Source of the DNA: an uncultured Treponema sp. | GTDB lineage: Bacteria; Spirochaetota; Spirochaetia; Treponematales; Treponemataceae | Length of the DNA stretch: 64,000 nt | Assembly (NCBI GenBank): GCA_947166355.1 | Contig: CAMVDX010000014.1 | Coordinates: forward strand, 1-64,000 | Direction: 5' to 3' | Part shown: positions 1-16,511 of the stretch, piece by piece | Layout of the letters: the number at the start of each line of letters is the position of its first letter | How positions within the stretch are numbered: position 1 is the first letter of the stretch | Made by a program: the position numbers and the translations under genes | Notes under the pieces: generated by a model | Told to the model about the DNA's origin: nothing | The model's input: the letters and a program-made list of their open reading frames with translations, nothing else | Database searches by the model: none

Positions 1-62
1 ACACTCAACACTCAACACTCAACACTCAACACTCAACACTCAACACTCAACACTCAACACTC
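1..62. repeat. Heptanucleotide tandem repeat (ACACTCA)n at the left edge
   Basis: Eight perfect head-to-tail copies of ACACTCA are followed by a six-base partial copy, and the array runs off the left edge, so the true copy number is unknown. The frame of the downstream secretin stays open through the whole array (a period of seven codons per 21 bases). Seven is not a multiple of three, so gain or loss of one unit would shift any frame that starts upstream, or change promoter spacing if the start is downstream. Confidence 0.95.
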
Positions 63-67
63 TAACT

Positions 68-2086
68 GTCTGCAAAAGGCTTAAGACAGTAATAATTCTG
101 ATAGCAGTAATAATCCTCAGCATGATGTCCGTGGCGGCGGCTCCCGATACGTTTGAGTTCGTCGATCAGGAAATCCGTGATATAGTATATATCCTTTCAG
201 TGAGGAGCGGACAGCCTTTAATCTGTGATGACACGGTAAGCGGCAGGGGAAGTTTTTTGTATGTGGCGGCAGATAGTGCAGATGCATTCAGTGATGCATT
301 TGACGCCTTCCTCCAGACGAATAAGCTCCTCGTAATAAAAGAAGAAGGGCTTTGGACGGTAACCAGAATACGGGTAGATGAAGAATCAGACGGAAAAATC
401 AGCGTTCAGAGCTATGACAGTACTCCGGCAGCAGTCTTTGAAAAAATATCTGGAAAAACAGGGCAGGCTGTAATCTACGAGACACTACCCGTACAAAGGG
501 CCTCATTCAGCATAAGGCATCAGAGTGTATACGACACGGTAAGGCTTATGCTACAGCCTTATTCAGAATATACGGTAAACGAGACTGCCGCAGGCGTAGA
601 GGTTGCAAGGAAAAAGGGTCTATCCGATTCTTCAGAGCTTGCCGCAGGCGTGAATGTGCTGTGTGACATAAGGTATTCAAACGGAAGGTACGATGCGGCA
701 GTCAGTAACACGAGGATATCGGAAGTATTGCAGAAGGTTTTCGTTCATACGGACGAGTCATATTCACTGTTCATGCAGAACGATGACAGGATAAAATCAG
801 TTTCATTTACAGAAAAAACGCTTAATGAGACCCTCATACTGCTTCTGGAGCAGGTGAATGCAGAACCGGTACAGAACGACGGGATATGGTACATATTTCC
901 TAGGGCAGAAAGAACAGGGCGGAATACGGTAGCGCAGAGGAGCCGAAGCTGGCACACTGTAAGACTGAGCAACATGGTGGCATCAAAGGCTGTACCGCTT
1001 ATAACAGCAAGGCATCCGGGAATGACGGTCATGGAACTTTCGCCCTCGCTTCTGGGTATATATGCCACCGGCGTGGAACATGAAGACATAAGTAAATATA
1101 TAGAAGAAATAGACCTAGGCCTTGAAAGCAAGGCAATCAGACTGAAGTACATAAAGACATCAGAGCTTGTTGCTTCGCTTCCTCCTGGCATAACGCGGGA
1201 AGAGATAACGGATACAGGAACTGGAAATTCATTTTTCTACAGCGGAAACGAAGAAAAAAGAAACCGGCTGATGGAACAGCTGGCAGAAATCGATGTTCCG
1301 AGAACGCTCGTCAGATATGATCTTCTTATCCTCCAGTATGAAAAAAGTTCAAACCTTTCATGGGGCGTATCAACATCGGTAAGACCGTCGGAGCCCGGGG
1401 ACAGGCTTCTTATAACGGGAGAAGTCGGAAACCTTCTGAACATTAACTTTGATGCTGTAACGGCATTCGGACTTACCTTTTCAGAAAAAATAAATACGGC
1501 AATAGCAAACAACGAGGCAACAGTTTTTGCAGATACGACGCTTTACGGACTTTCCGGCGAAAAGCTTACGTTCAGAAATACCAATACATACAGATACAAG
1601 GATGCGGCAATAGACAGCCAGAGCGGAAAAGAATCGTTTTCAACGATAACGCGGGAAATAACGTCGGGGCTGGTGCTTGAGATAGACGGCTGGGTGTCGG
1701 GAGACGGCATGATAACGATGCAGATAAATACTTCAGTGTCAAAGCAGGGCGTGGACATGTCGAAAAAAAACGGAAATCCGCCGCCGACTTCGGAAAAGAA
1801 CATAACCACAAAGATAAGGGCAAAAAACGGAGAGCCGGTGGTATTGAGTGGACTTAGCCAGTCGGACTATTCACAAAATGACCAGGGAGTACCTGTACTG
1901 TCAAAAATCCCGCTTCTGGGAAACCTTTTCAAGTCGAAGGATAAATCACAGACAAAAACAGAAATGACAATCTATCTGCTTCCTCATATAGAAGAGCTGA
2001 TTCCAGAAAGAGGAAAAAGCAGCTGGAAGGAAATACTGGAGCAGTATGTCAGGGAAACGGAGGAAGCTGATTTTGAAGCATCATGA
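68..2086 (+). CDS. gspD: Type II secretion secretin (GspD-like)
   Basis: Outer-membrane secretin that would form the exit pore of a type II secretion machine. The C-terminal third carries the secretin core, ending in the family signature GVPVLSKIPLLGNLF followed by a strand and the TIYLLPHI segment; the N-terminal two thirds resemble repeated N-domains. The ORF track starts at ATG 122, but in frame upstream codons encode a signal peptide (basic KRLK, a hydrophobic stretch, then AAA before Pro). I therefore prefer GTG 68 or a start beyond the window. No Shine-Dalgarno is visible before 68, and the frame stays open into the heptamer array, so the start is uncertain. It overlaps the ATPase gene by a few codons. 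Ile ATA and Arg AGG codons are frequent, unlike genes later in the window. Sure of the family, unsure of the start. Confidence 0.9.
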   Translation, partial: VCKRLKTVIILIAVIILSMMSVAAAPDTFEFVDQEIRDIVYILSVRSGQPLICDDTVSGRGSFLYVAADSADAFSDAFDAFLQTNKLLVIKEEGLWTVTRIRVDEESDGKISVQSYDSTPAAVFEKISGKTGQAVIYETLPVQRASFSIRHQSVYDTVRLMLQPYSEYTVNETAAGVEVARKKGLSDSSELAAGVNVLCDIRYSNGRYDAAVSNTRISEVLQKVFVHTDESYSLFMQNDDRIKSVSFTEKTLNETLILLLEQVNAEPVQNDGIWYIFPRAERTGRNTVAQRSRSWHTVRLSNMVASKAVPLITARHPGMTVMELSPSLLGIYATGVEHEDISKYIEEIDLGLESKAIRLKYIKTSELVASLPPGITREEITDTGTGNSFFYSGNEEKRNRLMEQLAEIDVPRTLVRYDLLILQYEKSSNLSWGVSTSVRPSEPGDRLLITGEVGNLLNINFDAVTAFGLTFSEKINTAIANNEATVFADTTLYGLSGEKLTFRNTNTYRYKDAAIDSQSGKESFSTITREITSGLVLEIDGWVSGDGMITMQINTSVSKQGVDMSKKNGNPPPTSEKNITTKIRAKNGEPVVLSGLSQSDYSQNDQGVPVLSKIPLLGNLFKSKDKSQTKTEMTIYLLPHIEELIPERGKSSWKEILEQYVRETEEADFEAS

Positions 2087-3275
2087 AAAGATTCTTTCGG
2101 CACCATTCTGTGAGAAAAACGGAATGGCGGTCATTTCAGAAAATGAAAGCAGTATTACAGTAGGTTATACGACTGAACCTGAAACTGAAATCCGGGAGAG
2201 GATACAGAGGTATTTTCTTCCGGAAAAGAAAGTTGAATACAGGAAGATAGGAAAGGAAGAATTTGACGTAATTCTTGCAAGGCTATATTCAGGAAGCGGA
2301 ACAAAGGCTTTGATTCGGAAGGACGGAGTAAAGACAGACGAGACGAGTGCTGCAAAAGCTGCTCCGGCAGTAAATCTTTTGAACAGCATAATAAGTGAGG
2401 GAATCCTAAAGGGAGCATCAGACATACATATAGACATAAATACACAGACTGTAAAAGTAAGGTACAGGAAAGACGGTAAGCTTTTTGTGATGCTCGAGGA
2501 TGAAGCAGGGCGTGGAGACAGCGTAGTAGCAAGAATTAAACTTTTATCAGACCTGAACATACTGGAACATAGAAGGTGTCAGGATGGAAGCTTTGAATAT
2601 AGTTATGGCGGCAAAGAGTATGACATAAGAGTGTCGGTAATTCCGGGAACAGAAGGAGAGTCTGCTGTACTCAGGATATTAGGCGGAGATATAAAGGCAC
2701 CTGGACTTGAAGAACTCGGCTTTACAAAAGCACAGCTTATACAGATAAGGACTCTGATGAATGCAGAAAGCGGACTCATAGTGGCAGCAGGTCCAACAGG
2801 GTCTGGAAAAACGACTACGCTTGCAAGCATTATAACGGAAATAAACCGTAGGGACATAAACATAATAACTGTAGAAGATCCTGTGGAATACAGGATAGAA
2901 GGTGTGCTTCAGGTGAACGTGGATGAGGGAATCGGGCGTACATTTGCTGAAGTGCTGAGGAGGATTCTCCGGCATGACCCGGATATACTTATGGTAGGCG
3001 AAATAAGGGATGAACAGACGGCGGCGATGGCATGCAGAACTGCATTAACAGGACACCTCGTATTTGCAAGCATACATACCTCAAGCTGTGAGGAGACACC
3101 GCTCAGGCTTACGGATATGGGAGTACCCCCGTATGTAGTGGGGGCAGTGCTCAGGGGTGTAATTTCACAGAGACTTGTAGAAAAGGTCGGAGGTGGAAGA
3201 ACAGTAAGGGCAGAAATAAGGATATTTGCTAGTCAGGAGGAGGTCAGGTCATTATGCGTACAAAAGGCTGTATAA
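2073..3275 (+). CDS. gspE: Type II secretion ATPase (GspE-like)
   Basis: Cytoplasmic hexameric ATPase that would power pseudopilus assembly. Visible motifs are Walker A GPTGSGKTTT (about residue 240), the Asp-box region ITVEDPVEY, and Walker B ILMVGEIRD followed by the TGHLVFASIHT histidine box. The track begins at ATG 2046, but TTG 2073 has a GGAGGA Shine-Dalgarno about 9 bases upstream, inside the end of gspD, so TTG is preferred. The protein is about 400 residues against about 500 for typical GspE. The N-terminal region is short, and the C-terminal tetracysteine zinc motif usual in GspE after SQRLV is absent: the protein ends soon after this point with no CxxC. The stop overlaps the gspF start, indicating translational coupling. 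A PilB/GspE paralogue is the only serious alternative. Confidence 0.92.
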   Translation: MKHHEKILSAPFCEKNGMAVISENESSITVGYTTEPETEIRERIQRYFLPEKKVEYRKIGKEEFDVILARLYSGSGTKALIRKDGVKTDETSAAKAAPAVNLLNSIISEGILKGASDIHIDINTQTVKVRYRKDGKLFVMLEDEAGRGDSVVARIKLLSDLNILEHRRCQDGSFEYSYGGKEYDIRVSVIPGTEGESAVLRILGGDIKAPGLEELGFTKAQLIQIRTLMNAESGLIVAAGPTGSGKTTTLASIITEINRRDINIITVEDPVEYRIEGVLQVNVDEGIGRTFAEVLRRILRHDPDILMVGEIRDEQTAAMACRTALTGHLVFASIHTSSCEETPLRLTDMGVPPYVVGAVLRGVISQRLVEKVGGGRTVRAEIRIFASQEEVRSLCVQKAV

Positions 3276-4201
3276 GAAGGCTTGGAACAGCACAGTTTCT
3301 GGAGCTGCTTCTGTCACTGGCAGAAAGCGGCGTTCCGGTTCCTGTAGCAGTGAGACTGCTTGAAAAAAGACCTGAGACGGAACGGCTGGCTGAAAAAATC
3401 AGGAAGGAGATGGAAGATGGCGGAACGTTATGCGAGGCACTTTGCGGACTTTCAGGAAAACTTTCAGAGTTTGAGACTATGCTTAGTGCTGCGGAGGAAA
3501 CCGGTGACATAGTTCCGGCTCTGTCAGGCATAGCGGAGGAGCTGAGGGAGATGGATGACGACAGGAAGAATCTTGCGGCAATAATTATATATCCGCTTGC
3601 AGTTTGCGTTCTGAGTCTTACTGGCGGAATATTTCTTGCAGTCAGGGGAATACAGTACATCAAGGTTATTGCAGACCTGGACGGTCAGGAAATCATAAAA
3701 AATCTTTCGGCAGCGACAGTTTGGCCTGTGGCAGTATATCCACTTCTTCTGGTGGCAGCATTACACGAATATAAAAAATATGATTTTCAGTATGTGTTTT
3801 TCAGAAACCTGTATTACATGTCGGTAAGCCATGTAGGAATGGAAGATGCGTTCAGGGTGCTTCTTGGAGAAAAACCGTTTACAAAAAAAGATATAGCCTG
3901 TGTGGCCGGAATGCTGAGGGGAATTCGTGATGGAAGGAAGCTTTCAGATGTTTTTGCACAAAGCGGAAGATTCGATATGTTTACTACGGCCTGGCTGTCT
4001 GTTACAGACGGAAATGGAGAACTTGTCCGTGGATTTGAGAAGATATATGAAAATTACAGGAAGAAGAGGAGGGAGACAAGGGAGCTTTTAAGACGTTTTC
4101 TTGAGCCGGCACTTACCGCCGTATGCGGAATATACGTACTGCTGCTTGCTGCTGGATGCATCATACCCGTATTTGGCAGTCTCGGAAAGCTTGTAATGTA
4201 A
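3254..4201 (+). CDS. gspF: Type II secretion inner-membrane platform protein (GspF-like)
   Basis: Polytopic inner-membrane protein expected to couple the ATPase to pseudopilin polymerisation. At 315 residues it is shorter than the usual ~400 but has the GspF layout: a cytoplasmic helical domain (residues ~1-110) with the ETGDIVPALSGIAEELRE-type helix, a hydrophobic hairpin (~115-180), a second cytoplasmic repeat (~190-285) containing VTDGNGELVRGFEKI, and a C-terminal membrane segment. ATG 3254 has AGGAGGAGG 9 bases upstream, within the end of gspE, so the two genes are coupled. The family call rests on these two repeated helical domains and on the position after gspE. Confidence 0.88.
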   Translation: MRTKGCIRRLGTAQFLELLLSLAESGVPVPVAVRLLEKRPETERLAEKIRKEMEDGGTLCEALCGLSGKLSEFETMLSAAEETGDIVPALSGIAEELREMDDDRKNLAAIIIYPLAVCVLSLTGGIFLAVRGIQYIKVIADLDGQEIIKNLSAATVWPVAVYPLLLVAALHEYKKYDFQYVFFRNLYYMSVSHVGMEDAFRVLLGEKPFTKKDIACVAGMLRGIRDGRKLSDVFAQSGRFDMFTTAWLSVTDGNGELVRGFEKIYENYRKKRRETRELLRRFLEPALTAVCGIYVLLLAAGCIIPVFGSLGKLVM

Positions 4202-4215
4202 GGAGAATGATAAAT

Positions 4216-4707
4216 ATGAACTTGAAAAAAATGAAGGTCAGAATCAGGAAAATGGCTGGAAAGGCTGGAAAATGGCTCATGTCAGATTCTGAAGGTTATA
4301 CCTATACGGAGACGGTAATCTGCATAGCAATAATGCTTATTCTTACTGTTGCAGTGGGAGCGGCATCGCTGAAGCTGATAGACAATGCAAAGGAAGCGAA
4401 ATGCCAGCGGGAAATTGAGGCGTTCAGGACTGCGCTTGAAGAGTATTACAGTGAATGCGGAATGCTTCCTACAACGGAACAGGGGCTTTCTGCATTATGG
4501 ACAAAGCCTGTGTTATATCCAGTTCCTTCAAAGTGGAACGGGCCTTATCTTAATACCGAAGTTCCGCCTGATCCGTGGGGAAGAGAATATTATTACAGAG
4601 TACCGGGGACTAACGGACTGAGGTACGAGATTTTTTCTTACGGCAGTGATGGTGAGAAGGGCGGAAGCGGAACGGCAGAAGACATTTATTCATGGAAACG
4701 GAGATAA
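4216..4707 (+). CDS. gspG: Major pseudopilin (GspG-like)
   Basis: Prepilin-like subunit of the pseudopilus. A prepilin cleavage site is visible: Gly at -1, then YTYTE with the conserved Glu at +5, then a ~20-residue hydrophobic helix. The C-terminal part has the GspG-specific signature (LPTTEQGLSALWTKP, PDPWGREYYY, FSYGSDG), including acidic residues that bind calcium in known GspG proteins. The leader is unusually long (about 30 residues, rich in Lys). The track start at 4123 lies inside gspF; ATG 4216 is preferred because TAAGGAG lies about 11 bases upstream (4207 is too close). A prepilin peptidase is required but is not in the window. Confidence 0.92.
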   Translation: MNLKKMKVRIRKMAGKAGKWLMSDSEGYTYTETVICIAIMLILTVAVGAASLKLIDNAKEAKCQREIEAFRTALEEYYSECGMLPTTEQGLSALWTKPVLYPVPSKWNGPYLNTEVPPDPWGREYYYRVPGTNGLRYEIFSYGSDGEKGGSGTAEDIYSWKRR

Positions 4708-4710
4708 GAC

Positions 4711-5949
4711 TTGGAGATTGAGCTGAGGGTTCCGTATGCGGAAATCTACAAAATGGGCATGGAAGAAAAGACGTTGTCAGGAAGGAAACTTTATGAATAT
4801 GTCAGGAGTTTGCTTGAAGGACTTCATCCGGGTTTCTGTTCTGAGAGTCTTTGGGATTATAAGGTCATAAAGAGCAGAGAAAAAAAATATATAATTTCAG
4901 CCGTTCTAGACCGTGATTTTTACATTGAAAAAAAACTTACAGAGAAAGGTGCTGTCTTTGTTGCTGAATATGAAAAAGGAAGAAAGACAAGACTTTTTCA
5001 GGGATTCAAATTTGATGAAAAAGGAAAGCGACGGAAGATAAGATATGTGTATATTTCGATAGCATTACTTATGACAGCAGTTTTGTTTCTGATACTTTTA
5101 GGATTCTGCAAGATGAAGCTGGAGAAGCGGCCCGTCATGCAGGACGCAGTTAAAGATGTAGAGGAGATATGGTTGCCGGATGTATTCGGAATTATGAACC
5201 GGAGTGCAGGGATTATAGGAAGGAACGGCGGAAAGATAACTCACGTAAGCTACACTGCTGCACAGACGGGTATAGTAATTTTTTCAGTTACAGGCTGTGA
5301 ACCGTATGCGCTGGTAAGTGACATTACGAAAGAATGCAGAGACTTATCATGCAGCTGCAAAAGCATAGTTTATGGCAGTTCGGGTGCAGCTTTTGAGCTT
5401 AAAGTTGAGACAGAGTTTCCATCCGTAATTCCGGGAAGTAAGACAGAGACAGAGCTGCTCGAGCTTCAGAGCTTCATGTCAGAAAGTCTTTGTGAGGCTG
5501 ACGGGAGACTCCTAACGTCAGTGATGGAAGAAGAGTCGCTAAGGGTGACATTTCTTCTTGAATGTAAAAAGGAAGGTCTGCGGACCATCAACGGTTGTAT
5601 AAACAGAATGTGCATTGAAAGGAAACTGTTTCTTACTGATTTTTCCGAGGAAGGCCCCGGAGAAAAAGACAGGTTTGCTGTGAGTTTCGGGGTAATTCCT
5701 CTTGATGAGAAACAAAATATAGAAGCAGAAGATACAAAGGAGAGCCTTTCGGAACTTTTTGAAGTGGGAAAGGAAAAGAGTGTTTATAAAGCTTCTGTAA
5801 AGGCAATAGATGGACAAGATGTTTTAAGAAAAGAAGAACATCCTTTAGGGTATACGAAAATTGGCTCTGTAAAGAAGGAAGGTAAGAGTTTGTATTACTA
5901 CAGAACAGAAGAAGGAAAGATAGTTGTAACAGAGGCAGAATATGAATAG
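4711..5949 (+). CDS. Bitopic membrane protein in T2SS operon (possible GspL/M analogue)
   Basis: I do not recognise a family. The 412 residues have a soluble N-terminal region (~1-107), one clear membrane helix (YVYISIALLMTAVLFLILLG, ~110-131), and a long C-terminal region predicted outside the inner membrane. That cytoplasm-helix-periplasm layout matches GspL topologically, and the gene sits directly after gspG, 3 bases past its stop, so an assembly-platform role is an inference. The start is TTG 4711 with CGGAG 7 bases upstream; ATG codons a little further in lack a comparable site. It overlaps the next gene by 8 bases. Confidence 0.7.
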   Translation: MEIELRVPYAEIYKMGMEEKTLSGRKLYEYVRSLLEGLHPGFCSESLWDYKVIKSREKKYIISAVLDRDFYIEKKLTEKGAVFVAEYEKGRKTRLFQGFKFDEKGKRRKIRYVYISIALLMTAVLFLILLGFCKMKLEKRPVMQDAVKDVEEIWLPDVFGIMNRSAGIIGRNGGKITHVSYTAAQTGIVIFSVTGCEPYALVSDITKECRDLSCSCKSIVYGSSGAAFELKVETEFPSVIPGSKTETELLELQSFMSESLCEADGRLLTSVMEEESLRVTFLLECKKEGLRTINGCINRMCIERKLFLTDFSEEGPGEKDRFAVSFGVIPLDEKQNIEAEDTKESLSELFEVGKEKSVYKASVKAIDGQDVLRKEEHPLGYTKIGSVKKEGKSLYYYRTEEGKIVVTEAEYE

Positions 5950-6421
5950 GAAGGCAGTTTCTGTACTTACAGGAATCATTGTGCTTTTTGCCGGATGCAG
6001 GAGCGTACCTGGGAGCAGGGAAAAGATAACGTTGAACGGAATGATATATGACACTGACAACAGACCTGTCGTGAACTATAGGATACGGATAGACGGAAGG
6101 GGAGTGTGCACGAGTGACATAGGAGGCAGATTCCTAATAAAAAAGATACGGAAGGGAGAGCATGTTTTTTCGGGATATGGAGAAGGATATCTGAAAATTG
6201 AAGAAAAGATAGTCGTATATGACAAAGCTCAGATTCTATACATAAGGGTACCAGCCGTGGATGCAAAATTCAGGGAAGCATTTGCCAGTATAAAAAAGAG
6301 GGAATATGAGGCTGCACAAAAAACAATAAATGAAATACTCGAAAGTGATAAAGACAATGAGGATGCCCTTTATTTTATTGAAGTGATAGAAAAACTCAGG
6401 AGGAAGCATGAGGAAAAATAA
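5942..6421 (+). CDS. Small lipoprotein with carboxypeptidase-regulatory-like fold
   Basis: A 159-residue exported lipoprotein: short basic start, hydrophobic stretch, and lipobox LFAG before Cys-19. Residues ~30-100 read like a carboxypeptidase-regulatory-like beta-sandwich (NGMIYDTDNRPVVNYRI then GGRFLIKKIRKGEH), a fold common in surface proteins. The C-terminal ~55 residues are helical and resemble a TPR-like hairpin (YEAAQKTINEILESDKDN). Position within the secretion operon, overlapping both neighbours, suggests it acts with the machine, perhaps as a GspS-like pilotin or accessory lipoprotein. That role is an inference. Confidence 0.75.
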   Translation: MNRKAVSVLTGIIVLFAGCRSVPGSREKITLNGMIYDTDNRPVVNYRIRIDGRGVCTSDIGGRFLIKKIRKGEHVFSGYGEGYLKIEEKIVVYDKAQILYIRVPAVDAKFREAFASIKKREYEAAQKTINEILESDKDNEDALYFIEVIEKLRRKHEEK

Positions 6422-6878
6422 GAGTAAAGCCCGGCTGATTTTTACGGTTTTTCTGACAGCATTATTATATGGCTGTAGAGGCAGCATGATGGACATAAGG
6501 ACACCTCCGTTTGTAATCAGTGAGCCCGAATATCGGGACGGTACGGAGGACGAAAGCTGTATTTTCGGCGGCGTGTATTTTGATTTTTATAACTGGGCGG
6601 AAAGCCGTGTAGTTTATTTGGAAATAAGGATGAATATATATGACAGGAAGACGAGGAAGAGTGCTTTTCCCGGATGTGGAACAATCAAGTCGGGGAACAG
6701 TGTGCTGATAGAAAGCGGAGAGAAAAGGCAGATGTGCATACCGCTTGATGAATATATAAATCAGATGAGTGAAGGCGGCTATCTGATAGACCAGTTTTAT
6801 GTAAGCCGCATTGATTATGAAGATGGAAGGGTGTGGATTGATGAGCTTGGTATGTATGCCTTAAGCGGCAGGGAGTAA
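6408..6878 (+). CDS. Small lipoprotein of unknown function
   Basis: A 156-residue protein with a basic N-terminus (RKNKSKAR), hydrophobic core and lipobox LLYG before Cys, so probably a surface or periplasmic lipoprotein. The rest is predicted mostly beta, with no catalytic motif I recognise. It starts inside the previous gene (14-base overlap) with AGGAGG just upstream at about 6399-6404, and the next gene follows after 3 bases, so it belongs to the same transcript. It could be an outer-membrane partner of the T2SS or a cell-surface adaptor for the following protease; the sequence does not decide. Confidence 0.7.
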   Translation: MRKNKSKARLIFTVFLTALLYGCRGSMMDIRTPPFVISEPEYRDGTEDESCIFGGVYFDFYNWAESRVVYLEIRMNIYDRKTRKSAFPGCGTIKSGNSVLIESGEKRQMCIPLDEYINQMSEGGYLIDQFYVSRIDYEDGRVWIDELGMYALSGRE

Positions 6879-6881
6879 ACA

Positions 6882-8564
6882 ATGAAAAAAAGAATGGTTT
6901 TAAGGGCAATACTGATAACAGTCATTATTTATGCAGGCTGCTCTAACCCGACAGATAACGGAAGATTGAAAGACGTTACTCCTCAGCCTGTACAGGAGCC
7001 TGCTCCTGAACCTGAAAGTGAACCGGAGCCAGAGTCGCAGCATGAGCCTGAAACACAAAGCGAACCGGAACCTGAATCCGAGCAAGATCCGGAGCCTGAA
7101 CCTGAACCGGAGCTGGAACCAGAGACTGAACCAGCACCAGAGCCGGAGCCTGAACCTGAGCCGGAACCGGAACCCGAGCCTGACCCCGAACCTGAGCCCG
7201 AGCCGGAGCCGGAACCTACCCCCGAACCAGAACCAGAACCGGAACCTGAGTCTGAAGAAGAGGCAGAGCCTCCTGAACTGGAACTTCCCGAAGAAGAGGA
7301 GCCTGCAGAGCTTACGCTAATGGTTTACATGGCGGCTGACAATGACCTTGAAAGCTATGCGCTTCAGAATCTCAAGGCAATGGAACATGCAGAATATGAA
7401 AAGATAAATGTAATCGCTCTTATTGACCGTGCAGAAGGCTACGACCAGACAAACGATGACTGGACTGATACGAGACTATTAGAAATCATGCATGACAGTA
7501 CGGACGGAAGCTGGCTTGTTTCGAGGCGGCTAAAATGTCCTGCCCTCGGAATTTCTGAACGCAGGGTAACAGAACTAGATATGGCAAATCCTGCCGTGCT
7601 CAAAGGCTTTATAGAATTCTGCAAGAGCGAATATGAAGCCAAGCAGTATGCCCTGATTATCTGGGGGCACGGAACCGGCTGGCGTTATGCGGCGGAAGGT
7701 TACAGCGTATGGGGTAGTCGTGCCGTTGCAATCGACGACAAGAGCGGCTCTTATATGAGCGTGCATGACCTCGGGCGTGCCGTGCGCGGACAGGGACTTT
7801 GTGTAATCGGTTTTGACACCTGCTTTGGCGGCGTTATGGAAAACGTATATGAACTGAAAAACTGTGCGACGTATACGGTCGGATGTCCCGGAGTAACTCC
7901 CGGAAGCGGCTGGGATTATGGAAGGCTTCTTGAAGAAATATCAGGTGGAGGCTTTGGTGCAAGAAGTATTGCAACTGCTATGGCGGGCAGCGCTTCGGTT
8001 CAGACTACAGTATTTGTGAATAAGGAAATAGCAAGGCTTATGACAGCTTTTGAAGGCTTTGCAGGAGAACTTGCGGGTTCGATTACTACGGCGGCACAGA
8101 GAAATACTGTGTTCAACACGCTCTTTTGTTTGAGGTCTTACAGCTATACGCAGTATCCGTGTGACATGTACTTAGATATTGGTGCAATGGCCGAATGGTA
8201 TTCGCAGAATGCATCGGGTAACGGTCTGAGGTCTGCGGCTCAGGGGCTGAAGCAGGCAGTGGAGAGGGCTGTGCTTGCGGCGGGTGGAACGGGAAGTTCA
8301 TCGGGAAATGGCGGTGCATCTGGAGGTAGCGGAACCTCTGGGGGCGGAGGTTCGAACGGGGCTTCTGGTGCCGTGGGATTTGGAGTTCATTTTATTCCGC
8401 TCAGCGGAGCGCGTACGGCTGCGGCTGCCCATTCAGAAGATTACATAAAGGACAGTGCAAGAAACGATCAGTGCGCGTTCATAAAAGAAAGCCAGTGGTG
8501 GGTGCCGACTGTGGATGGGAACTCGGGCAGCCTGCTGGATAAGATTTTTTACACGGTTTATTAA
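6882..8564 (+). CDS. Clostripain-family (C11) cysteine protease lipoprotein with Glu-Pro spacer
   Basis: Exported cysteine protease anchored as a lipoprotein (lipobox YAG before Cys). Residues ~35-145 form a long, almost uninterrupted Glu-Pro repeat, a rigid acidic spacer that would hold the enzyme away from the membrane. The catalytic domain starts at [14 protein letters not shown]. The C11 His is in WGHGTGW (about residue 262) and the Cys in GFDTCFGG (about 314). A Gly/Ser-rich loop near residues 465-500 looks like a low-complexity insertion. C11 proteases cleave after basic residues, usually Arg or Lys. Being between T2SS genes and the RHS gene, it may process surface proteins, including the RHS product; that is inference. 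Confidence 0.88.
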
Positions 8565-8581: not shown

Positions 8582-11500
8582 ATGAAGAAGAATATAAAGA
8601 AGATGATTTTTATAATCGGCTGTTTTTTTCTGATATCATCAGGATTAAGTGCTTTTTATTACGGGCCTGACGGACAGCATTCCAGCGGCGGAGGAAAAGA
8701 GAAGCCTTCAGAGAGCAGTCCTTCAAGCGAGTCTGAAAGTCAAACTAATGATAACACCGGAGGCAAATCAGAAAAACAGGGAAACGAAAACGGCGGAACG
8801 AATACCAACCCCGACGGCGGTCAGAGTAATACGGGCGGAACCTCTGGAGGCGGCGGAAATGAAAAAAATAAAGATGGGGCTGATGAAGAAAAAAAGAAAG
8901 AGGAAGAAGAAGCCGCAAGACGTGCACGCGAAGAAGCTGAACGGAAAGCCCGTGAGGAAAGAGAGCATATGGAAGCAATAAAAAATGCTCTGCAGGAAGC
9001 TGAAAAAAAGGCTCTTGATGAAGAGAATCGGTTGCAGGAACTTGAAGCTGAAATTGCAAAGGCTGAAGAGAGGTTAAAGAATGCAGATGATGGAAATATG
9101 TATCCTGCCGCCAGCCGCGCAATGAAACAGACCATGGATTCCCTCAAACGTCAGCAGGAAGAAAAACGTAAAAAATATGATGAAATTCAGAAAGAATGCG
9201 AAAAGCTGAATAAGGAAATCAAGGAAAAGGAAAACTCAAAAACCGGCGGAGACCCGGTAAGGCTTACAACTGGAAGCTATGAACAGAATGAGAGCGATAT
9301 AATAATTTCTGGTGTTCAGCCTTTTGAAGTAAAAAGAAAATATGATTCTGAAAATAAGATTATATCAAGCTTCGGCTACGGCTGGGTAACGAACCTTGAC
9401 CAGAGAATAATACTTGGTACAAGTGCTTCGATACAGAATGAATATGAAGAGCTTCTTGTGAATCTGAGTCAGGCGAAAGAAATTAGAGACAGCCTGGAAC
9501 TGGATATAAAAAGCTCTTACAGAATCTCATCAATAGAAAACGGAGAAACAGAGATTCTTCAAAGAAAGAACCGGCTTCTTGAAATCGGAGCTGCGGCGCA
9601 TGAACTTGCATTGCAGCGGGGAGAAAATATAGAAATAAATATTCCTGTGTTTGAAACAGAAACGGAAACAGATGAAACATCAGAAACACAGTTCTCAGAT
9701 GGTACAGTCAGTGTAGCTCCGGCTTCAGGTTCTGCAGCAGGTTCAGATTCAGGTAAAGTCTCTACTTCTGGTTCTGATTTGAACTCAGATTCCGGTTCGA
9801 ATTCAACATCCGGTTCTGCTTCGACTTCATCTTCCAGTTCTGTAGTAAGTTCTTCATCATCCTCTTCCTCTTCTTCGAGCACCAGTTCACAGTCGGGAAG
9901 CAGCATGACAGGTAATCCGGAAAACAGTCCTGGAAGCAGTACAGGTTTTTCAGGATTCTCAGAAGGTGTAACCTCAGCTTCATCAGACGGGAATCAGAGT
10001 GTTCCTGAAATTGAACCGCTTCCAAATATACTTGAGGGGGTAATAACGGAAGAAGAGCTTAATGCATTAATAGAGAGACTGAGGTTGAAGTCAGAAAATC
10101 TGAGTGTAACGGCTGAGCAGATATCCGCTGAGGCTTACAGGCGCGCCGAAGAACTGGATGGAATTATTGAATCATTTCGGGAAGATGTTTCATTTCTGAA
10201 TCAGATACAGAGTGAATATGAAGCGATGAAGCATGAGGTGGATGCATTTTATGCGGCAGAGTTTGCTCCGAGTGCAGGCCGCCATAACAGGAACAGCAGG
10301 GCTCTTTTTACTGGAATGGAGTCTGGCTATGAGGAAACCGGGCTTGATACAATTACCCTGATAGATGAAAACGAATATCCGCATCTTCTTTATGAAACAG
10401 GAGAAGGAAGCAGAATCTGGAGGAATGACAGTGAGAAAAATATTGTAAACGTTACGGTTGCAGACGACGGCTATCTTGTGTCGCTGCGTGACGGTACGGT
10501 AAAGGCCTTTGATGAAGCAGGCTTTATTATCAGGCTCACAGACAGAAATGAAAACACTATTGGAATCAGCCGTAATCCGGATGAAAAAATAAATTATATT
10601 GAAACTTCTTTCGGCGAAAAATACAGATTTGAATATAACGGAAGATTTATTTCAAAAATAACAAACGAACGTTCGTTAGATGAAAGTGTAAGCTATGGAT
10701 ACAGCGGAAACAGCCTTGTGAGTGTAAAGGATACAGACGGCGATACGGTAACCATGACTTATGATTCAGAAGACCGCATGACTGCTTTGAATAAATGCGA
10801 CGGAAGCAGCGTGCGTTTTGAATATGGAGAACAGACGGCAGATGGCTTAGTTCTTACAACTGCAACCGTAAACGAAGAAGGCTATGCCGAGCATTTTGAA
10901 TATGACAGAAGCGGTATGCGTACTGTATATATAGATCACGACGGAAACAGAACCTGTTACTGGTATGACGGCCGGCACAGAACAGTACGTGAGGAACAGC
11001 CTGACGGAACTGTCATTATAAATGAATATGATGATTTTGATAATTTAATCCGCATGAATGAAAACGGTAACGTTACTTCTTTCAGCTATGACGGCTCTGG
11101 AAATAAAACAGCTGCTTCTTACAGCGACGGAAGTTATGAGAGCTGGAGCTATGATGATTTTGGTCTGGTTATTTCGTATACAGACCGTGACGGTGTGAGG
11201 GAAGAGTATGTCAGGGATGGAAAAGGAAACATCACGGCATATCGCAGAGGCGGAAAAACTGTTTATGAGCAGACTGCTGATTCAAAAGGTCAGGTGACTA
11301 GCCGGACTGTTTATGGAGAGAAAGCAGTTACGGTGAATTATGTTTATGACAGGTACGGCAATGTGGTACGCAAAGAATGCGGCGGCGTGCTTACTGAATA
11401 TCAGTATGACGGCAGGAACAGGCTTGTGAAGGAAAAACAGGCGGGAAAGGTCTTGTCAGAATATCAGTATGAAGGAAATAAAACTGTAAGAAAAGATTAT

Positions 11501-14500
11501 AACGGTCTTGAAACTATATATCTAACTAACGGTCGTAAGGATTTGATTAGAGTTACGCAGAAAGATACCGTTACTGGAATCGTGCATGAAACAAGAATTG
11601 AATACGACAGAAGACATCTGCCGCTAAGAGTTTTCGAGGGAAACGGAGAGAATGAAAAACTTGTTTCTTCATATTTATATACTGCTGAAGGAAAGCTCCG
11701 TGCAGAAATCCTTCATGGCAGTGAAAACTGGATAAGACTTTATGAATACAGAAATAATCAGATATGTGAAGTGAAGCAGTTTAAGGTTTCAATTGGCGGG
11801 CTCGCGCAGGCAAACTCGGTCGGGGCGCATGGTGACCTATTTGAGTCTATCGAAAACACTGGTTCACCAATTGATGAAAATCGTCTGAGAACCTTGCTGA
11901 CAGCAGCGGAAGAAAATGTCTTTGTTCAGGAATATGGATATCAGATCTCTGGCGGAAACAGAAAACTCGTGACCGTAACCGACGGGCTTGGAGTTCAGAA
12001 TCTTTTTGAATATGACAGTAATGGAAATCTTATAAAGACTACGGACGGAAATGGTACTGTAAGGCAGAGAAATTACACAAGGGCCGGCCGTCTTTTTGCA
12101 GAACAGAGTTCTCACGGCGGCTGGTACGAATACGGCTATACTGACGGCTCCCTGAGCAGTGCCAGAGAACAGGGCGGTGCGGCTATCCGTGCTGAATACT
12201 ATCCGGATGGAAGCCTTAAGAGCGAGACAGACCGCTACGGTAAAACGACTTACTATCATTACGACAGTCGCAGCCGTGTAGTAAGTGTACAGAGTGAAGC
12301 TCAGAAAATCTGGTATGAATATGATGATTTTGACAGGGTGGTAAGGAGTGTCGTGGGGAACTCGGCAGATGAAGCTGTAAGCGTTTATTACGAGACTCAT
12401 GAATATTCATCTGATGGAAGAAAGGTAACCGTCAGTGAAGGCGGCAAATACAAGACAGTTTATGAGCTTGATGCCTTCGGAAATGTTGTTAAACAGATTG
12501 ATGGAAATACTAACGAACGTTCGTATGTATATGATATGCAGAACGGTCTTATTGCAGAATATGACGGTTATGGAGAAAAGACTTCTTATGAATACAACGC
12601 GCTTGGACTGGTGAGCAAGGTAACACTGCCGGATGGAACAGAAACAAAATATGAATACAATTATATGGGACTTCTTTCAAAAGTTACGGATGACTGCGGG
12701 ACAGTTTATGAAGCTTTATATGATAAGGCTGGCCGCCTTATAAAGGAGCGTAATCGTGCTGACTCAGAGAAATCCTATGAATATGACAGGGCAGGGCGGG
12801 TTACCAAAGTTCTCTGCGGTGGTGAAGTTGTAGAATCATATACTTACGGTGCTGATAGCCGAACAATAACCGTAAAGGACGGTAACGGTAATGATTACCT
12901 TTATAACTACGACGCCTTCGGTCGCCTGATAAGCGAAAGAAACCGCAGTAGTCTTGAACAGAATTATTCTTACGATGAAGAAGGTCAGCTTAACTACAGA
13001 AACAGCTTTGATGGCGGAACTACAACAATATCTTATTCATCAGACAGAACTGTAAGGACTGTCCGATATTCCGACGGTTCAGAAAACCGATTCGTCTACG
13101 ACATGATTGGTAACATTACAGAATCACAGAACGCTTACGGTAGAACGCAGTACCACTATGACCAGGGTGGCCACATGGTTTACCAGAAAGACGTAACGAC
13201 AGGTGAAGAAATCTATTTTACTTACGATGATGCCGGTAACAGAATAAGACTCGAAAGCTCTAACCGCCAGACTTCATACACCTATGGTAAAAACAACGAG
13301 GTAAAAGAAATTTTTGACAACAGGCAGAGAATCAGTATAAAATTAGAGTATGATAAAGTCGGAAGGGAAGCATTGAGAAAGTTTGGTAACGGCACATCAG
13401 AACAGACTCTATATGATAAAGCAGGACGTGTAACTGTTAAGACTCAGAAAAACAGCCGCGGTGAACTGCTGTGGGGTGAGGGCTATGTGTACGGCAGTGA
13501 CGGTAAACGGAGTGCAACGGTTGATAACCTCGGCCGGATTACTTTCTACGAATACAACAGTAAAGGTCAGCTCAGTGCAGTTTTCTATCCTTATACCGAT
13601 GAGATGATTAGGAATCTGAAGTCGGAAGCTGAAACGAACGGACTTTCTACAACAGCTGAAGCAGGCGAGAACCGTTTTATTACTAGCACAGAAAGAGCAG
13701 AACTAGTTCCGCTTCTAAACTCCATGCAGTACGGACTTGCCTATAATCTTACAAACTTACAGGTTTTCATAAAAGAAAGTTATGCCTACGACAGAAACGG
13801 CAACCGCACAACAAAAACTACCCCTTACGGAAAAATTGAATACACTTACGACAGGGAAAACTGCCTGCTTTCAAGCGGCTCTAAAGGTCAGACTTTCATA
13901 AACTATACTTATGACGCAATGGGAAATCTCCTCACAGAAGAAAGTGCAAATAAAACAGTAAAATACGCCTATAACGCTCAGAACCGCCTGATTTACTGCG
14001 AAGTAACAGACAGAGCAAATAAGGAATATGCCCAGACAACCTATGCCTACGATGCATTCGGCAGACGTATTATTGTACAGGACAGGGGAGAAGCCGCAAT
14101 CCGTACCCTTTACGATGGACTAACCTTTGACATCATTAAGCAGGGACCGACCTTCGCAAACGGCCAGTTCACAGATTCAGGCAGCGGCATAAAGTTCAGC
14201 AGCACCGGCCGCCCGACCGGAGACCGCTACCGCTACTTAGGCGACGAAGACAAAAAAGACGGCAGCCGCTACTTCTATCTGGACGAGGGAACTTACAAAA
14301 ATGTAAGCACTCGTTACCGCGGCGAACGCACAACAATAAACGTAAACGGAACACTAGCTGCCCAGACCACAACCGAAGGAACAGATTACTTTTCAACCGA
14401 CTTACTCGGAAGTATCCGTTCAACAACCGATGTCTACGGCGCACAGAAATCAAACTACACCTACGACGCTTTCGGCACTCTAATTCAGGGCAGTCTAAAC

Positions 14501-15304
14501 GGCACCACAGACCACGGCTACCTGGGCAAACAGTACGAATCAACAAGCCGGCTATACAACTACGGCTACCGCGACTACAAACCGCAGACTGCTAGATTCA
14601 CTACTCTCGACCCAATCCGCGATGGCGCCAATTGGTTCATCTATTGCAATAGCGACCCGGTAAACTTCATTGATTTACTTGGATTATGTGAGGCAAATGA
14701 TAGAGAAAACAATTTCTTACTGAAAGAAAATGAAAGATATACAAATAACATATATGAATATTATATACCTGAGGGTAATGGCAATAGACCTGGAGAAAAA
14801 CGTACTGAGACAAAAGGTGTTGTAATTCATTTTACAGAGGTAACTAGACAGGATCCTAAAAAAACAATAGATGCTTGGATAAAAGATGGAGAGAAAAAGA
14901 AACCAAAGTATGGTAGTGCTCAATATGTAATAGCTACAAATGGTAATATATATGCAGCTATCCCAGAGGATGAAGTTGCATATCATGCTGGTGGAAGTCC
15001 TGAAAATCCACTACGTTCTGAAATGAAAAACAAACTAGGTAATCCAAATAGAACTACAATAGGTATCGAGTTAGAAAATAATTATGATAGTGGAGGCTTT
15101 ACAAGTGAAACTGAAAATGCCGCGATTCAATTAACAGCAGAAATAATGCTAAAAAATGGTTTGGACCCCCAAAAAGACTTGTATAGACATAATGATCTAA
15201 CTGGAAAAAATTGTCCAAAATATTATGTTGATAATCCTGGAGAATGGGAACAATTTAAGTATAAAGTCGAACAAGAAATGGAAAGACTTGGAGGTGTAAA
15301 ATAA
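8582..15304 (+). CDS. RHS-repeat polymorphic toxin with C-terminal peptidoglycan amidase domain
   Basis: A 2240-residue exported RHS protein. Order: Sec signal peptide (1-24); Gly/Asn/Ser-rich linker; charged coiled coil (~95-220); a DUF6531-like entry module (GDPVRLTTGSY, ~222-275) interrupted by a Ser/Thr-rich insert (~375-470); many YD repeats (~640-1900); the RHS core (YRYLGDEDKKDGSRYFY through RFTTLDPIRDG, ending IDLLGL at ~2035); then a 205-residue tip. The tip matches Amidase_2 (N-acetylmuramoyl-L-alanine amidase): VVIHFTEV supplies the first zinc His (~2081), YRHNDLTGKNCP the second His and Cys (~2200), and IGIELEN is the conserved strand. Base composition becomes clearly more AT-rich at the tip, as expected for a swappable toxin cassette. 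SD GAGGAGG lies before ATG 8582. Secretion by the adjacent T2SS is inferred. Confidence 0.93.
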   Translation: MKKNIKKMIFIIGCFFLISSGLSAFYYGPDGQHSSGGGKEKPSESSPSSESESQTNDNTGGKSEKQGNENGGTNTNPDGGQSNTGGTSGGGGNEKNKDGADEEKKKEEEEAARRAREEAERKAREEREHMEAIKNALQEAEKKALDEENRLQELEAEIAKAEERLKNADDGNMYPAASRAMKQTMDSLKRQQEEKRKKYDEIQKECEKLNKEIKEKENSKTGGDPVRLTTGSYEQNESDIIISGVQPFEVKRKYDSENKIISSFGYGWVTNLDQRIILGTSASIQNEYEELLVNLSQAKEIRDSLELDIKSSYRISSIENGETEILQRKNRLLEIGAAAHELALQRGENIEINIPVFETETETDETSETQFSDGTVSVAPASGSAAGSDSGKVSTSGSDLNSDSGSNSTSGSASTSSSSSVVSSSSSSSSSSSTSSQSGSSMTGNPENSPGSSTGFSGFSEGVTSASSDGNQSVPEIEPLPNILEGVITEEELNALIERLRLKSENLSVTAEQISAEAYRRAEELDGIIESFREDVSFLNQIQSEYEAMKHEVDAFYAAEFAPSAGRHNRNSRALFTGMESGYEETGLDTITLIDENEYPHLLYETGEGSRIWRNDSEKNIVNVTVADDGYLVSLRDGTVKAFDEAGFIIRLTDRNENTIGISRNPDEKINYIETSFGEKYRFEYNGRFISKITNERSLDESVSYGYSGNSLVSVKDTDGDTVTMTYDSEDRMTALNKCDGSSVRFEYGEQTADGLVLTTATVNEEGYAEHFEYDRSGMRTVYIDHDGNRTCYWYDGRHRTVREEQPDGTVIINEYDDFDNLIRMNENGNVTSFSYDGSGNKTAASYSDGSYESWSYDDFGLVISYTDRDGVREEYVRDGKGNITAYRRGGKTVYEQTADSKGQVTSRTVYGEKAVTVNYVYDRYGNVVRKECGGVLTEYQYDGRNRLVKEKQAGKVLSEYQYEGNKTVRKDYNGLETIYLTNGRKDLIRVTQKDTVTGIVHETRIEYDRRHLPLRVFEGNGENEKLVSSYLYTAEGKLRAEILHGSENWIRLYEYRNNQICEVKQFKVSIGGLAQANSVGAHGDLFESIENTGSPIDENRLRTLLTAAEENVFVQEYGYQISGGNRKLVTVTDGLGVQNLFEYDSNGNLIKTTDGNGTVRQRNYTRAGRLFAEQSSHGGWYEYGYTDGSLSSAREQGGAAIRAEYYPDGSLKSETDRYGKTTYYHYDSRSRVVSVQSEAQKIWYEYDDFDRVVRSVVGNSADEAVSVYYETHEYSSDGRKVTVSEGGKYKTVYELDAFGNVVKQIDGNTNERSYVYDMQNGLIAEYDGYGEKTSYEYNALGLVSKVTLPDGTETKYEYNYMGLLSKVTDDCGTVYEALYDKAGRLIKERNRADSEKSYEYDRAGRVTKVLCGGEVVESYTYGADSRTITVKDGNGNDYLYNYDAFGRLISERNRSSLEQNYSYDEEGQLNYRNSFDGGTTTISYSSDRTVRTVRYSDGSENRFVYDMIGNITESQNAYGRTQYHYDQGGHMVYQKDVTTGEEIYFTYDDAGNRIRLESSNRQTSYTYGKNNEVKEIFDNRQRISIKLEYDKVGREALRKFGNGTSEQTLYDKAGRVTVKTQKNSRGELLWGEGYVYGSDGKRSATVDNLGRITFYEYNSKGQLSAVFYPYTDEMIRNLKSEAETNGLSTTAEAGENRFITSTERAELVPLLNSMQYGLAYNLTNLQVFIKESYAYDRNGNRTTKTTPYGKIEYTYDRENCLLSSGSKGQTFINYTYDAMGNLLTEESANKTVKYAYNAQNRLIYCEVTDRANKEYAQTTYAYDAFGRRIIVQDRGEAAIRTLYDGLTFDIIKQGPTFANGQFTDSGSGIKFSSTGRPTGDRYRYLGDEDKKDGSRYFYLDEGTYKNVSTRYRGERTTINVNGTLAAQTTTEGTDYFSTDLLGSIRSTTDVYGAQKSNYTYDAFGTLIQGSLNGTTDHGYLGKQYESTSRLYNYGYRDYKPQTARFTTLDPIRDGANWFIYCNSDPVNFIDLLGLCEANDRENNFLLKENERYTNNIYEYYIPEGNGNRPGEKRTETKGVVIHFTEVTRQDPKKTIDAWIKDGEKKKPKYGSAQYVIATNGNIYAAIPEDEVAYHAGGSPENPLRSEMKNKLGNPNRTTIGIELENNYDSGGFTSETENAAIQLTAEIMLKNGLDPQKDLYRHNDLTGKNCPKYYVDNPGEWEQFKYKVEQEMERLGGVK

Positions 15305-15898
15305 ATGAAAAAAAATATTAATATTTGTCTAATTTTTTTGATTACAGTATTTGTTTATGGACAGAAATCAATGTTTGATAAATTAACTATTATAGGAGAA
15401 CATGAGGACCTTCATAGCATAATAAATATTGGAAATTCAATAATTGAGACATTAGTTAAAAATGATTATGAACTTCTTTCTCATTATTGTTTTGAAGAAA
15501 TTCGTTTTTCTCAAGCTTTAGGGTTTTCCATTGAAACCGATACAAGCATAAATAAGAAATACATATCAGTTGCAGGAAAATCAAATAAAAAATTTCCATT
15601 TTATTTTTTTCAGCCAGATAAGTTTATTGATTATGAATTAAAAGATATTCTTGAATCCTATAAACCAAATTCTGAAAAATTAGAGGCTGTTGTAATTAAT
15701 GGTTTGATAAAGAATAAAGAAGTTGAGAAAAAATATTTATCTGATTTAGCAAAAATTTTTGGAGAATGTGTTTCACTAGAATATTATTCAGGTCCATCTG
15801 ATTTACAGATAGATTGGGAGTGTACAATTTTAATATTGAAAAAGGTTGGACTAACATATAGACTTGTTGGAATTTCACAAGATTACTGGCAACCATAA
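15305..15898 (+). CDS. Putative periplasmic immunity protein for the RHS amidase toxin
   Basis: No family recognised. The 197-residue product begins with a Sec signal (MKKNINICLIFLITVFVYG, cleavage near Gly/Gln), so it would act in the periplasm, where a peptidoglycan amidase would do damage. It follows the toxin stop with no gap (TAA then ATG), and its GGAGGTG Shine-Dalgarno lies inside the last toxin codons, so the two are translationally coupled. Its AT-rich composition matches the toxin tip and not the RHS body. These features fit a toxin-immunity pair; immunity itself is an inference. No lipobox or membrane helix beyond the signal is visible. Confidence 0.75.
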   Translation: MKKNINICLIFLITVFVYGQKSMFDKLTIIGEHEDLHSIINIGNSIIETLVKNDYELLSHYCFEEIRFSQALGFSIETDTSINKKYISVAGKSNKKFPFYFFQPDKFIDYELKDILESYKPNSEKLEAVVINGLIKNKEVEKKYLSDLAKIFGECVSLEYYSGPSDLQIDWECTILILKKVGLTYRLVGISQDYWQP

Positions 15899-16026: not shown

Positions 16027-16238
16027 AAGCTCCGGGCAGAAATTCTCCACGGAACTGAGACCTGGATCCGACTCTATGAATACAGAAATAATCAGATTTC
16101 AGAACTCAAACAATTCAAGGTAAATTCGGTGGTTGAGGTCCTTGAAACCACCGCAGATCTCATCGACGAAACAAGATTGCAACCCCTTCTGCACACTGCC
16201 GTCTCAAATGTCTACACTGAGAACACATTTCTACAAAC
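16027..16238 (+). pseudogene. RHS gene remnant
   Basis: One frame reads KLRAEILHGTETWIRLYEY and continues with NNQISELKQFKV, nearly identical to residues around 1040-1070 of the intact RHS protein (KLRAEILHGSENW, NNQICEVKQFKV). Homology continues through DETRLQPLLHTAVSNV. A short piece resembling the GGTGGTTGAG...CCACC repeat family lies inside it (16124-16147). There is no start codon and the frame leaves the homology where the Rpn remnant begins. It is probably the scar of a second RHS copy or displaced tip. Confidence 0.85.
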
Positions 16239-16511
16239 GAGCCCGGAGAAGATGATTTTTCAAGGCGTCTTTCCAGACTTGTAGCGGATTATAAAGAAGA
16301 CGAATAATACAGGAGTGATTATTTAGTAATGAATTTACATGACCATGACATTAGATACGAAGCTCTTGCCGAAGGTGCCAGACAGAAAGCCGTGGAAGCT
16401 GCAAAAGCTTTTCTTGCAGACGGAAAGTATACACCGGAAAGAATTGCAGAACTTCTTAATATCCCTGTAGAAGCCTTTATGGAAAAGGCTCCGCATAGAC
16501 AAGGAAAATAG
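16233..16511 (+). pseudogene. Rpn / PD-(D/E)XK nuclease-family transposase remnant (C-terminal part)
   Basis: Reading in one frame from 16233 gives TNEPGEDDFSRRLSRLV, a TAA stop near 16305, then YRSDYLVMNLHDHDI and on to ERIAELLNIPVEAF. This aligns continuously with the C-terminal third of the intact Rpn-family gene at 23305-24126. The ORF track lists only the last 60 residues (16329-16511) as an ORF. The internal stop and missing N-terminal nuclease part mark it as a pseudogene. It abuts the RHS remnant without a gap. Confidence 0.85.

Follow-up and report, generated by a model that had tools for sequence, protein, structure and literature searches.

A heptanucleotide repeat in the 5' coding end of a type II secretin gene of an uncultured Treponema as a candidate translational switch

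Introduction

What does a run of perfect seven-base repeats do when it leads directly into the gene for a secretion channel? The locus that raises this question lies at the left end of contig C14 in the genome of an uncultured Treponema sp., the assembly of which amounts to 3.25 Mb in 65 contigs and is 89% complete; the window, that is the whole stretch of DNA that was analysed, comprises bases 1-64000 of C14. A preliminary description of this DNA noted at least eight copies of ACACTCA at the secretin gene and proposed that slippage within them could either switch an upstream start on and off or alter the spacing of a promoter, and that a whole secretion machine might be controlled in this way. 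The features of the locus are collected in Table 1.

Table 1. Features of the array, the secretin gene and the type II secretion locus in the window
Feature	Position	Strand	Remarks
Array (ACACTCA)8.9	1..62	+	Truncated by the contig end; reads (HSTLNTQ)n in all three forward frames
Last array units and LTV codons	41..70	+	In-frame alignment with the codons after the G048 ATG (QYSTFDALTV; L045)
Stop TAA	63..65	+	Reached when the unit number is 2 modulo 3
Signal-peptide-like segment KRLKTVIILIAVIILSMMSVAAA	74..142	+	Judged by eye; no in-frame ATG, GTG or TTG before 122
Stop TAA	82..84	+	Reached when the unit number is 1 modulo 3
Secretin (GspD-like), as called from ATG 122	122..2086	+	Pfam Secretin 111.6 bits; frame continues upstream through the array
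GspE-like ATPase	2046..3275	+	Overlap with the 3' end of the secretin gene; by eye, possible TTG start near 2070
GspF-like inner membrane protein	3254..4201	+	Overlaps gspE
GspG major pseudopilin	4123..4707	+	Above NCBIfam cut-off
Protein of unknown family	4711..5949	+	Position kept in G048 and G073
Two small genes (5942-6421 and 6408-6878)	5942..6878	+	Lipoprotein-like by eye; position kept in G048 and G073
Clostripain-family (Peptidase_C11) protein	6882..8564	+	
Rhs/YD-repeat protein, 2240 aa, with Rhs-associated core and C-terminal Amidase_2 domain	8582..15304	+	Probable cargo
Small gene, 197 aa, directly after the Rhs C-terminus	15305..15898	+	Candidate immunity gene by position only

The array and the start of the secretin gene

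Tandem Repeats Finder reports the array as a repeat of period 7 with 100% matches, its 8.9 perfect units agreeing with the at least eight copies noted earlier, and many perfect short units of this sort are one mark of an SSR contingency locus. Two units in tandem (14 bases) are found at 7 places in the window but in none of 100 dinucleotide-preserving shuffles, so that the array is far more than chance would give. All frames of the forward strand are open across the repeat. As base 1 of the window is also base 1 of C14 the array is cut at that point, and the 62 bases that are present on C14 alone are compatible with at least nine units.

The distribution of the heptamer was surveyed using one genome per species. 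Three exact units were found in 2 of 274 genomes of the family, namely the genome studied here and G191, which has a short array of the same heptamer, and in 2 of 392 genomes of the phylum, namely the genome studied here (which is in both sets) and G328. The latter belongs to another family of the phylum and carries a long AACACTC array (L063, ~1495-1575) directly after ATGGAA, in a short open frame 5' of an unrelated gene; this array adjoins no secretin. Amongst 34 stretches scanned around secretin starts, consisting of 30 secretin loci and 4 longer stretches that partly cover the same loci, a repeat with a period of at least 2 and more than 5 copies was found in the window copy only.

From base 2 onwards the secretin frame runs uninterrupted for 694 aa to its stop at 2086, and its first listed start is the ATG at 122. 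The codons between the array and this ATG encode a basic stretch followed by a hydrophobic stretch that ends VAAA/PDTFEF, and by eye this segment resembles a Sec signal peptide. From the end of the array up to ATG 122 the secretin frame offers no ATG, GTG or TTG, and none occurs within the heptamer itself, so that if the signal peptide is made the start of the secretin would have to lie upstream of the array. A protein made from ATG 122 would be without most of the signal-peptide segment and would begin MMSVAAAPDTFEF, and no Shine-Dalgarno sequence is seen before this ATG. The earlier observations that a start at 122 drops a signal peptide, and that the frame stays open through the array, are thus both borne out.

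An in-frame start before the chosen hydrophobic stretch is found at 28 of the 30 secretin loci of the genus, the two exceptions being the window copy and L016. The exception at L016 is spurious, the script having chosen the wrong hydrophobic stretch (as it probably also did at L043); an ATG does precede the signal peptide of L016. Comparison of the secretin with its orthologue in the sister species, G048, gave a pN of 0.21 and a pS of 0.79, only pN and pS being given as dS is saturated for the D, F and clostripain genes; this amounts to purifying selection, and the secretin therefore does not look like a dead gene.

The probable left flank of the array

The only other such array in the genome forms the last 55 bases of contig C33, at its right end and in the same orientation as the array on C14. 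Two arrays that face each other at contig ends suggest a single array split by the assembly, and the right end of C33 is probably the left flank of C14, with the break falling within one array; the leftward extension of the contig that the preliminary description had proposed as a check has in this way a probable answer. The end of C33 can also be aligned with the region immediately 5' of the G048 secretin gene, the secretins themselves being 67% identical. This flank alignment scores 48, whereas 500 dinucleotide shuffles averaged 24 and did not exceed 43; the score of 48 was reached by 4 of 20000 mononucleotide shuffles and by none of 2872 other stretches of the genome's own sequence, two overlapping ones of which scored 47. 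When the G048 flank was searched against the whole of the genome studied here, C33:20838-20868 tied for second place of 40 matches with an E value of 0.34, which would be weak by itself, yet the place and the orientation are right. Synteny gave no support for joining C33 to C14, as the G048 relative of the gene at the end of C33 is on C22 and the G048 secretin is on C26; relatives of this end gene are found in 55 of 196 genomes of the genus. Resting as it does on the contig ends and a modest alignment, the join is likely.

The contig break was also considered as proof that the array is long or variable, and this was rejected. A dispersed repeat of ~60 bp, present at 40 listed places in the genome, stands at the start of contigs C10 (bases 1-60, L047), C12 and C46, so repeats of that length are enough to break the assembly and no variation in length is needed.

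The right end of C33 carries a promoter-like site, TTGCAA-16-TATAAT, which is the best on that strand and lies wholly 5' of the array. In the 150 bases that precede the array on C33, a single start codon, an ATG at a distance of 28 bases from the array, has a frame that is open into it. No Shine-Dalgarno sequence precedes this ATG, and with the -10-like box ~6 bases ahead of it, initiation here would be leaderless or nearly so. The secretin start of G048 is also without a Shine-Dalgarno sequence, although at 24 of the 30 loci compared within the genus one is seen under a lax test.

Origin of the array

The secretin of G048 begins MQYSTFDALTV, its ATG being the earliest start codon that the open frame contains. 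The codons that follow the ATG, CAA TAT TCA ACA TTT GAT GCA TTA ACT GTA, contain an imperfect heptamer pair, CAATATT CAACATT, with the LTV codons shortly behind it. The corresponding codons at the end of the window array, CAA CAC TCA ACA CTC AAC ACT CTA ACT GTC, share 20 of 30 bases with these when aligned in frame, 8 of the 10 mismatches are transitions, and a match of 20 of 30 is equalled by only 2 of 173536 other 30-mers of the genome's own sequence. Going by this alignment, expansion of the array probably took place within the coding region, on the 3' side of the promoter-like site, and growth from a coding two-unit precursor would be the simplest account of its origin. The sister species would seem to show the two-unit precursor of a contingency array, in frame and within coding sequence. 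The G048 ATG aligns opposite GGC in C33, so the start codon would have moved upstream, and this moved start codon is the weakest part of the model.

A proposed translational switch and its alternatives

When C33, an array of N units and C14 are joined, N of 9, 12, 15 or 18 gives a protein of 704-725 aa that includes the full secretin. The other eight values of N from 7 to 18 give products of 28-53 aa that end at one of the two TAA codons in Table 1, the out-of-frame unit counts all stopping within 22 bases of the array. The unit is not a multiple of three and in the joined model the length of the array sets the frame throughout N 7-18, a result that hinges on the C33 join. Read-through of the array into the secretin is well supported.

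We consider it rather likely that the array sits in the 5' part of the secretin coding sequence, after the start codon and ahead of the signal peptide, and that slipped-strand mispairing makes it a translational on/off switch. Transcription would start from the TTGCAA-16-TATAAT site near the end of C33 and translation from the ATG 28 bases before the array, the N units being read as repeated HSTLNTQ. If N is a multiple of three, translation would read through into the signal peptide and the secretin; at any other N it would stop at 63-65 or 82-84 and an exportable secretin would not be made, and in this OFF state the expression of the overlapping downstream genes may be lowered by polarity. 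Slipped-strand mispairing would change the number of units and hence turn the gene on or off. The two effects of slippage envisaged in the preliminary description thus fare differently: that the unit number modulo three decides whether an upstream start, here the C33 ATG, reaches the secretin is upheld in the joined model, whereas the array altering promoter spacing is disfavoured, as the promoter-like site lies wholly upstream of the array in C33. Points against the switch model are the nearly leaderless C33 ATG with no Shine-Dalgarno sequence, the shift of the start codon relative to G048, and an extension before the hydrophobic core of the signal peptide that would be ~38 residues or more.

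It could instead be argued that the array is a neutral microsatellite of the 5' coding or leader region, grown from an ancestral CAAYAYT pair and held in frame by selection against frameshifts, without any regulatory role. The imperfect heptamer pair at the same place in the G048 orthologue speaks for this, as do the array of G328, which has no secretin beside it, and the short one of G191. Neutrality is nevertheless unlikely in our view: with some nine or more perfect 7-base units in coding sequence any slip shifts the frame, so that switching follows whether it has been selected or not, and amongst the 34 stretches at secretin starts an array with a period of at least 2 and more than 5 copies is confined to the window copy.

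Translation might also begin 3' of the array, at ATG 122 or at a non-ATG codon, which would place the array in a 5' untranslated leader where it would either tune mRNA structure or be inert. It is true that ATG 122 is the first listed start and that the C33 ATG has no Shine-Dalgarno sequence, but a start at ATG 122 is likewise without one and costs the protein its signal peptide, the interval from the array to ATG 122 offers no in-frame ATG, GTG or TTG, and the region aligned with G048 lies within the coding frame of that species; a downstream start is accordingly quite improbable. We give even less credence to the suggestion that C33 is not the left flank and that the true start and promoter are on unassembled DNA, with the array either translated or part of the promoter. 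The assembly is certainly incomplete and no syntenic genome backs the join, but there are just two arrays in the genome, both are at contig ends and facing, and the end of C33 resembles the leader of the G048 secretin. A translational switch read from the C33 ATG is the reading that is followed below.

Comparison with known phase-variable loci

The Opa proteins of Neisseria are turned on and off at the level of translation by an out-of-frame CTCTT repeat in the region that encodes the signal peptide. The Opa repeat is a pentamer and its product a surface adhesin, whereas here the repeat is a heptamer and the product a secretion channel.

In switch logic the closest likeness that was found is to neuO of phage CUS-3 in E. 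coli K1, with no homology to NeuO being claimed. The gene is described as having a heptanucleotide repeat, AAGACTC, in its 5' coding region that is subject to strand slippage, and as being ON when the repeat number is divisible by three, with 3 to 53 repeats in 64 genomes (PMC13001214). The Treponema locus would likewise have 7-base repeats just after a start codon, with 28 bases from the ATG to the array, and given the C33 join would be ON at N of 9, 12, 15 and 18. The two differ in that neuO encodes a capsule O-acetyltransferase and variation of its repeat is documented (PMC13001214), whereas the present gene codes for a type II secretin, with the array ahead of a signal peptide, and variation in its length is a prediction from sequence. 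In hmw1A and hmw2A of Haemophilus influenzae, which are described as contingency loci, TGAAAGA heptanucleotide arrays in the promoters modulate transcription (PMC2651432), unlike the present locus, the array of which begins only after the whole of the promoter-like site.

Phase variation that touches a gene for type II secretion is not wholly new, as CFF04554_0871 of Campylobacter fetus, which is annotated as a "putative type II secretion system protein" and contains a G9 tract, appears in an in silico listing of potentially phase-variable genes (PMC6321876); there the repeat is a homopolymer G tract known from that listing, whereas here it is a heptamer before the signal peptide of a secretin. 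In the open-access literature, where absence is weak evidence, no account was found of a secretin gene switched by a repeat. The heptamer switches that were found in print act, as far as the accounts drawn on here go, on a surface-modifying enzyme and on adhesins. If the switch proposed here is real, a secretion apparatus can itself be a contingency locus, and a single event at the secretin would stop all proteins that rely on this channel from being exported.

The type II secretion locus, a second such locus and the probable cargo

The Pfam families Secretin, T2SSE, T2SSF and T2SSG all score above their cut-offs at this one locus. The NCBIfam equivalog cut-offs are missed by GspD (109.4 of 351.35 bits), GspE (327.5 of 630.25 bits) and GspF (49.8 of 424 bits) and reached by GspG (109.8 of 88.85 bits), and with GspG the only one of the four to do so, the system is to be regarded as type II-like but divergent. 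None of GspC, H, I, J, K, L and M was recognised at the locus. The gene order from the secretin to the clostripain gene is kept in G048 and G073, and in G048 an Rhs-like gene then follows.

The Rhs protein of the window has YD repeats, an Rhs-associated core and a variable C-terminal toxin-like domain, the features by which Rhs polymorphic toxins are recognised, and the machine encoded beside it may be what exports it. A precedent for the export of an Rhs bacteriocin by type II secretion is Bcn-A of Xanthomonas perforans, a Rhs/YD-repeat bacteriocin whose activity requires the T2SS gene xpsD; the part of that report drawn on here describes no phase variation (PMC7259588).

A scan of genome contigs with the window secretin gave one distant locus and led no further. 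In the genome studied here a second GspD-E-F-G locus, also with clostripain and Rhs genes, lies on C10 (L047, L074), and this has no array and an ordinary secretin start region. The secretins of the C10 and window loci are 37% identical, as against 93-95% for the clostripain proteins and 92% for the Rhs core, and the C10 Rhs paralogue matches residues 1-2036 only of the window protein. This pattern suggests that the cargo genes were exchanged or recently copied between the two loci, the machines being old and distinct. An array-free locus with a near-identical clostripain and Rhs core limits what the array could control, and the preliminary description's "whole secretion machine" was in this respect an overstatement. 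It is conceivable, though we regard it as rather doubtful, that the window encodes a phase-variable channel for an Rhs antibacterial toxin, in which case the array would switch the secretin of this T2SS-Rhs locus at random while the other of the two loci has an ordinary start; it is then the machine and not the toxin that would be switched, and the population would thereby hedge how much killing, or which kind, takes place.

Several smaller features were observed in and around these genes. The N-terminal part of the clostripain contains a Glu/Pro-rich imperfect repeat (window 7005-7250). At about 16035-16300 the window has DNA similar to part of the Rhs core, by eye a remnant, and more partial Rhs copies are found downstream on C10. 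Beside the Rhs locus of the window, on the minus strand at 16643-18913, is a gene for a 756-aa protein with a caspase-like Peptidase_C14 domain.
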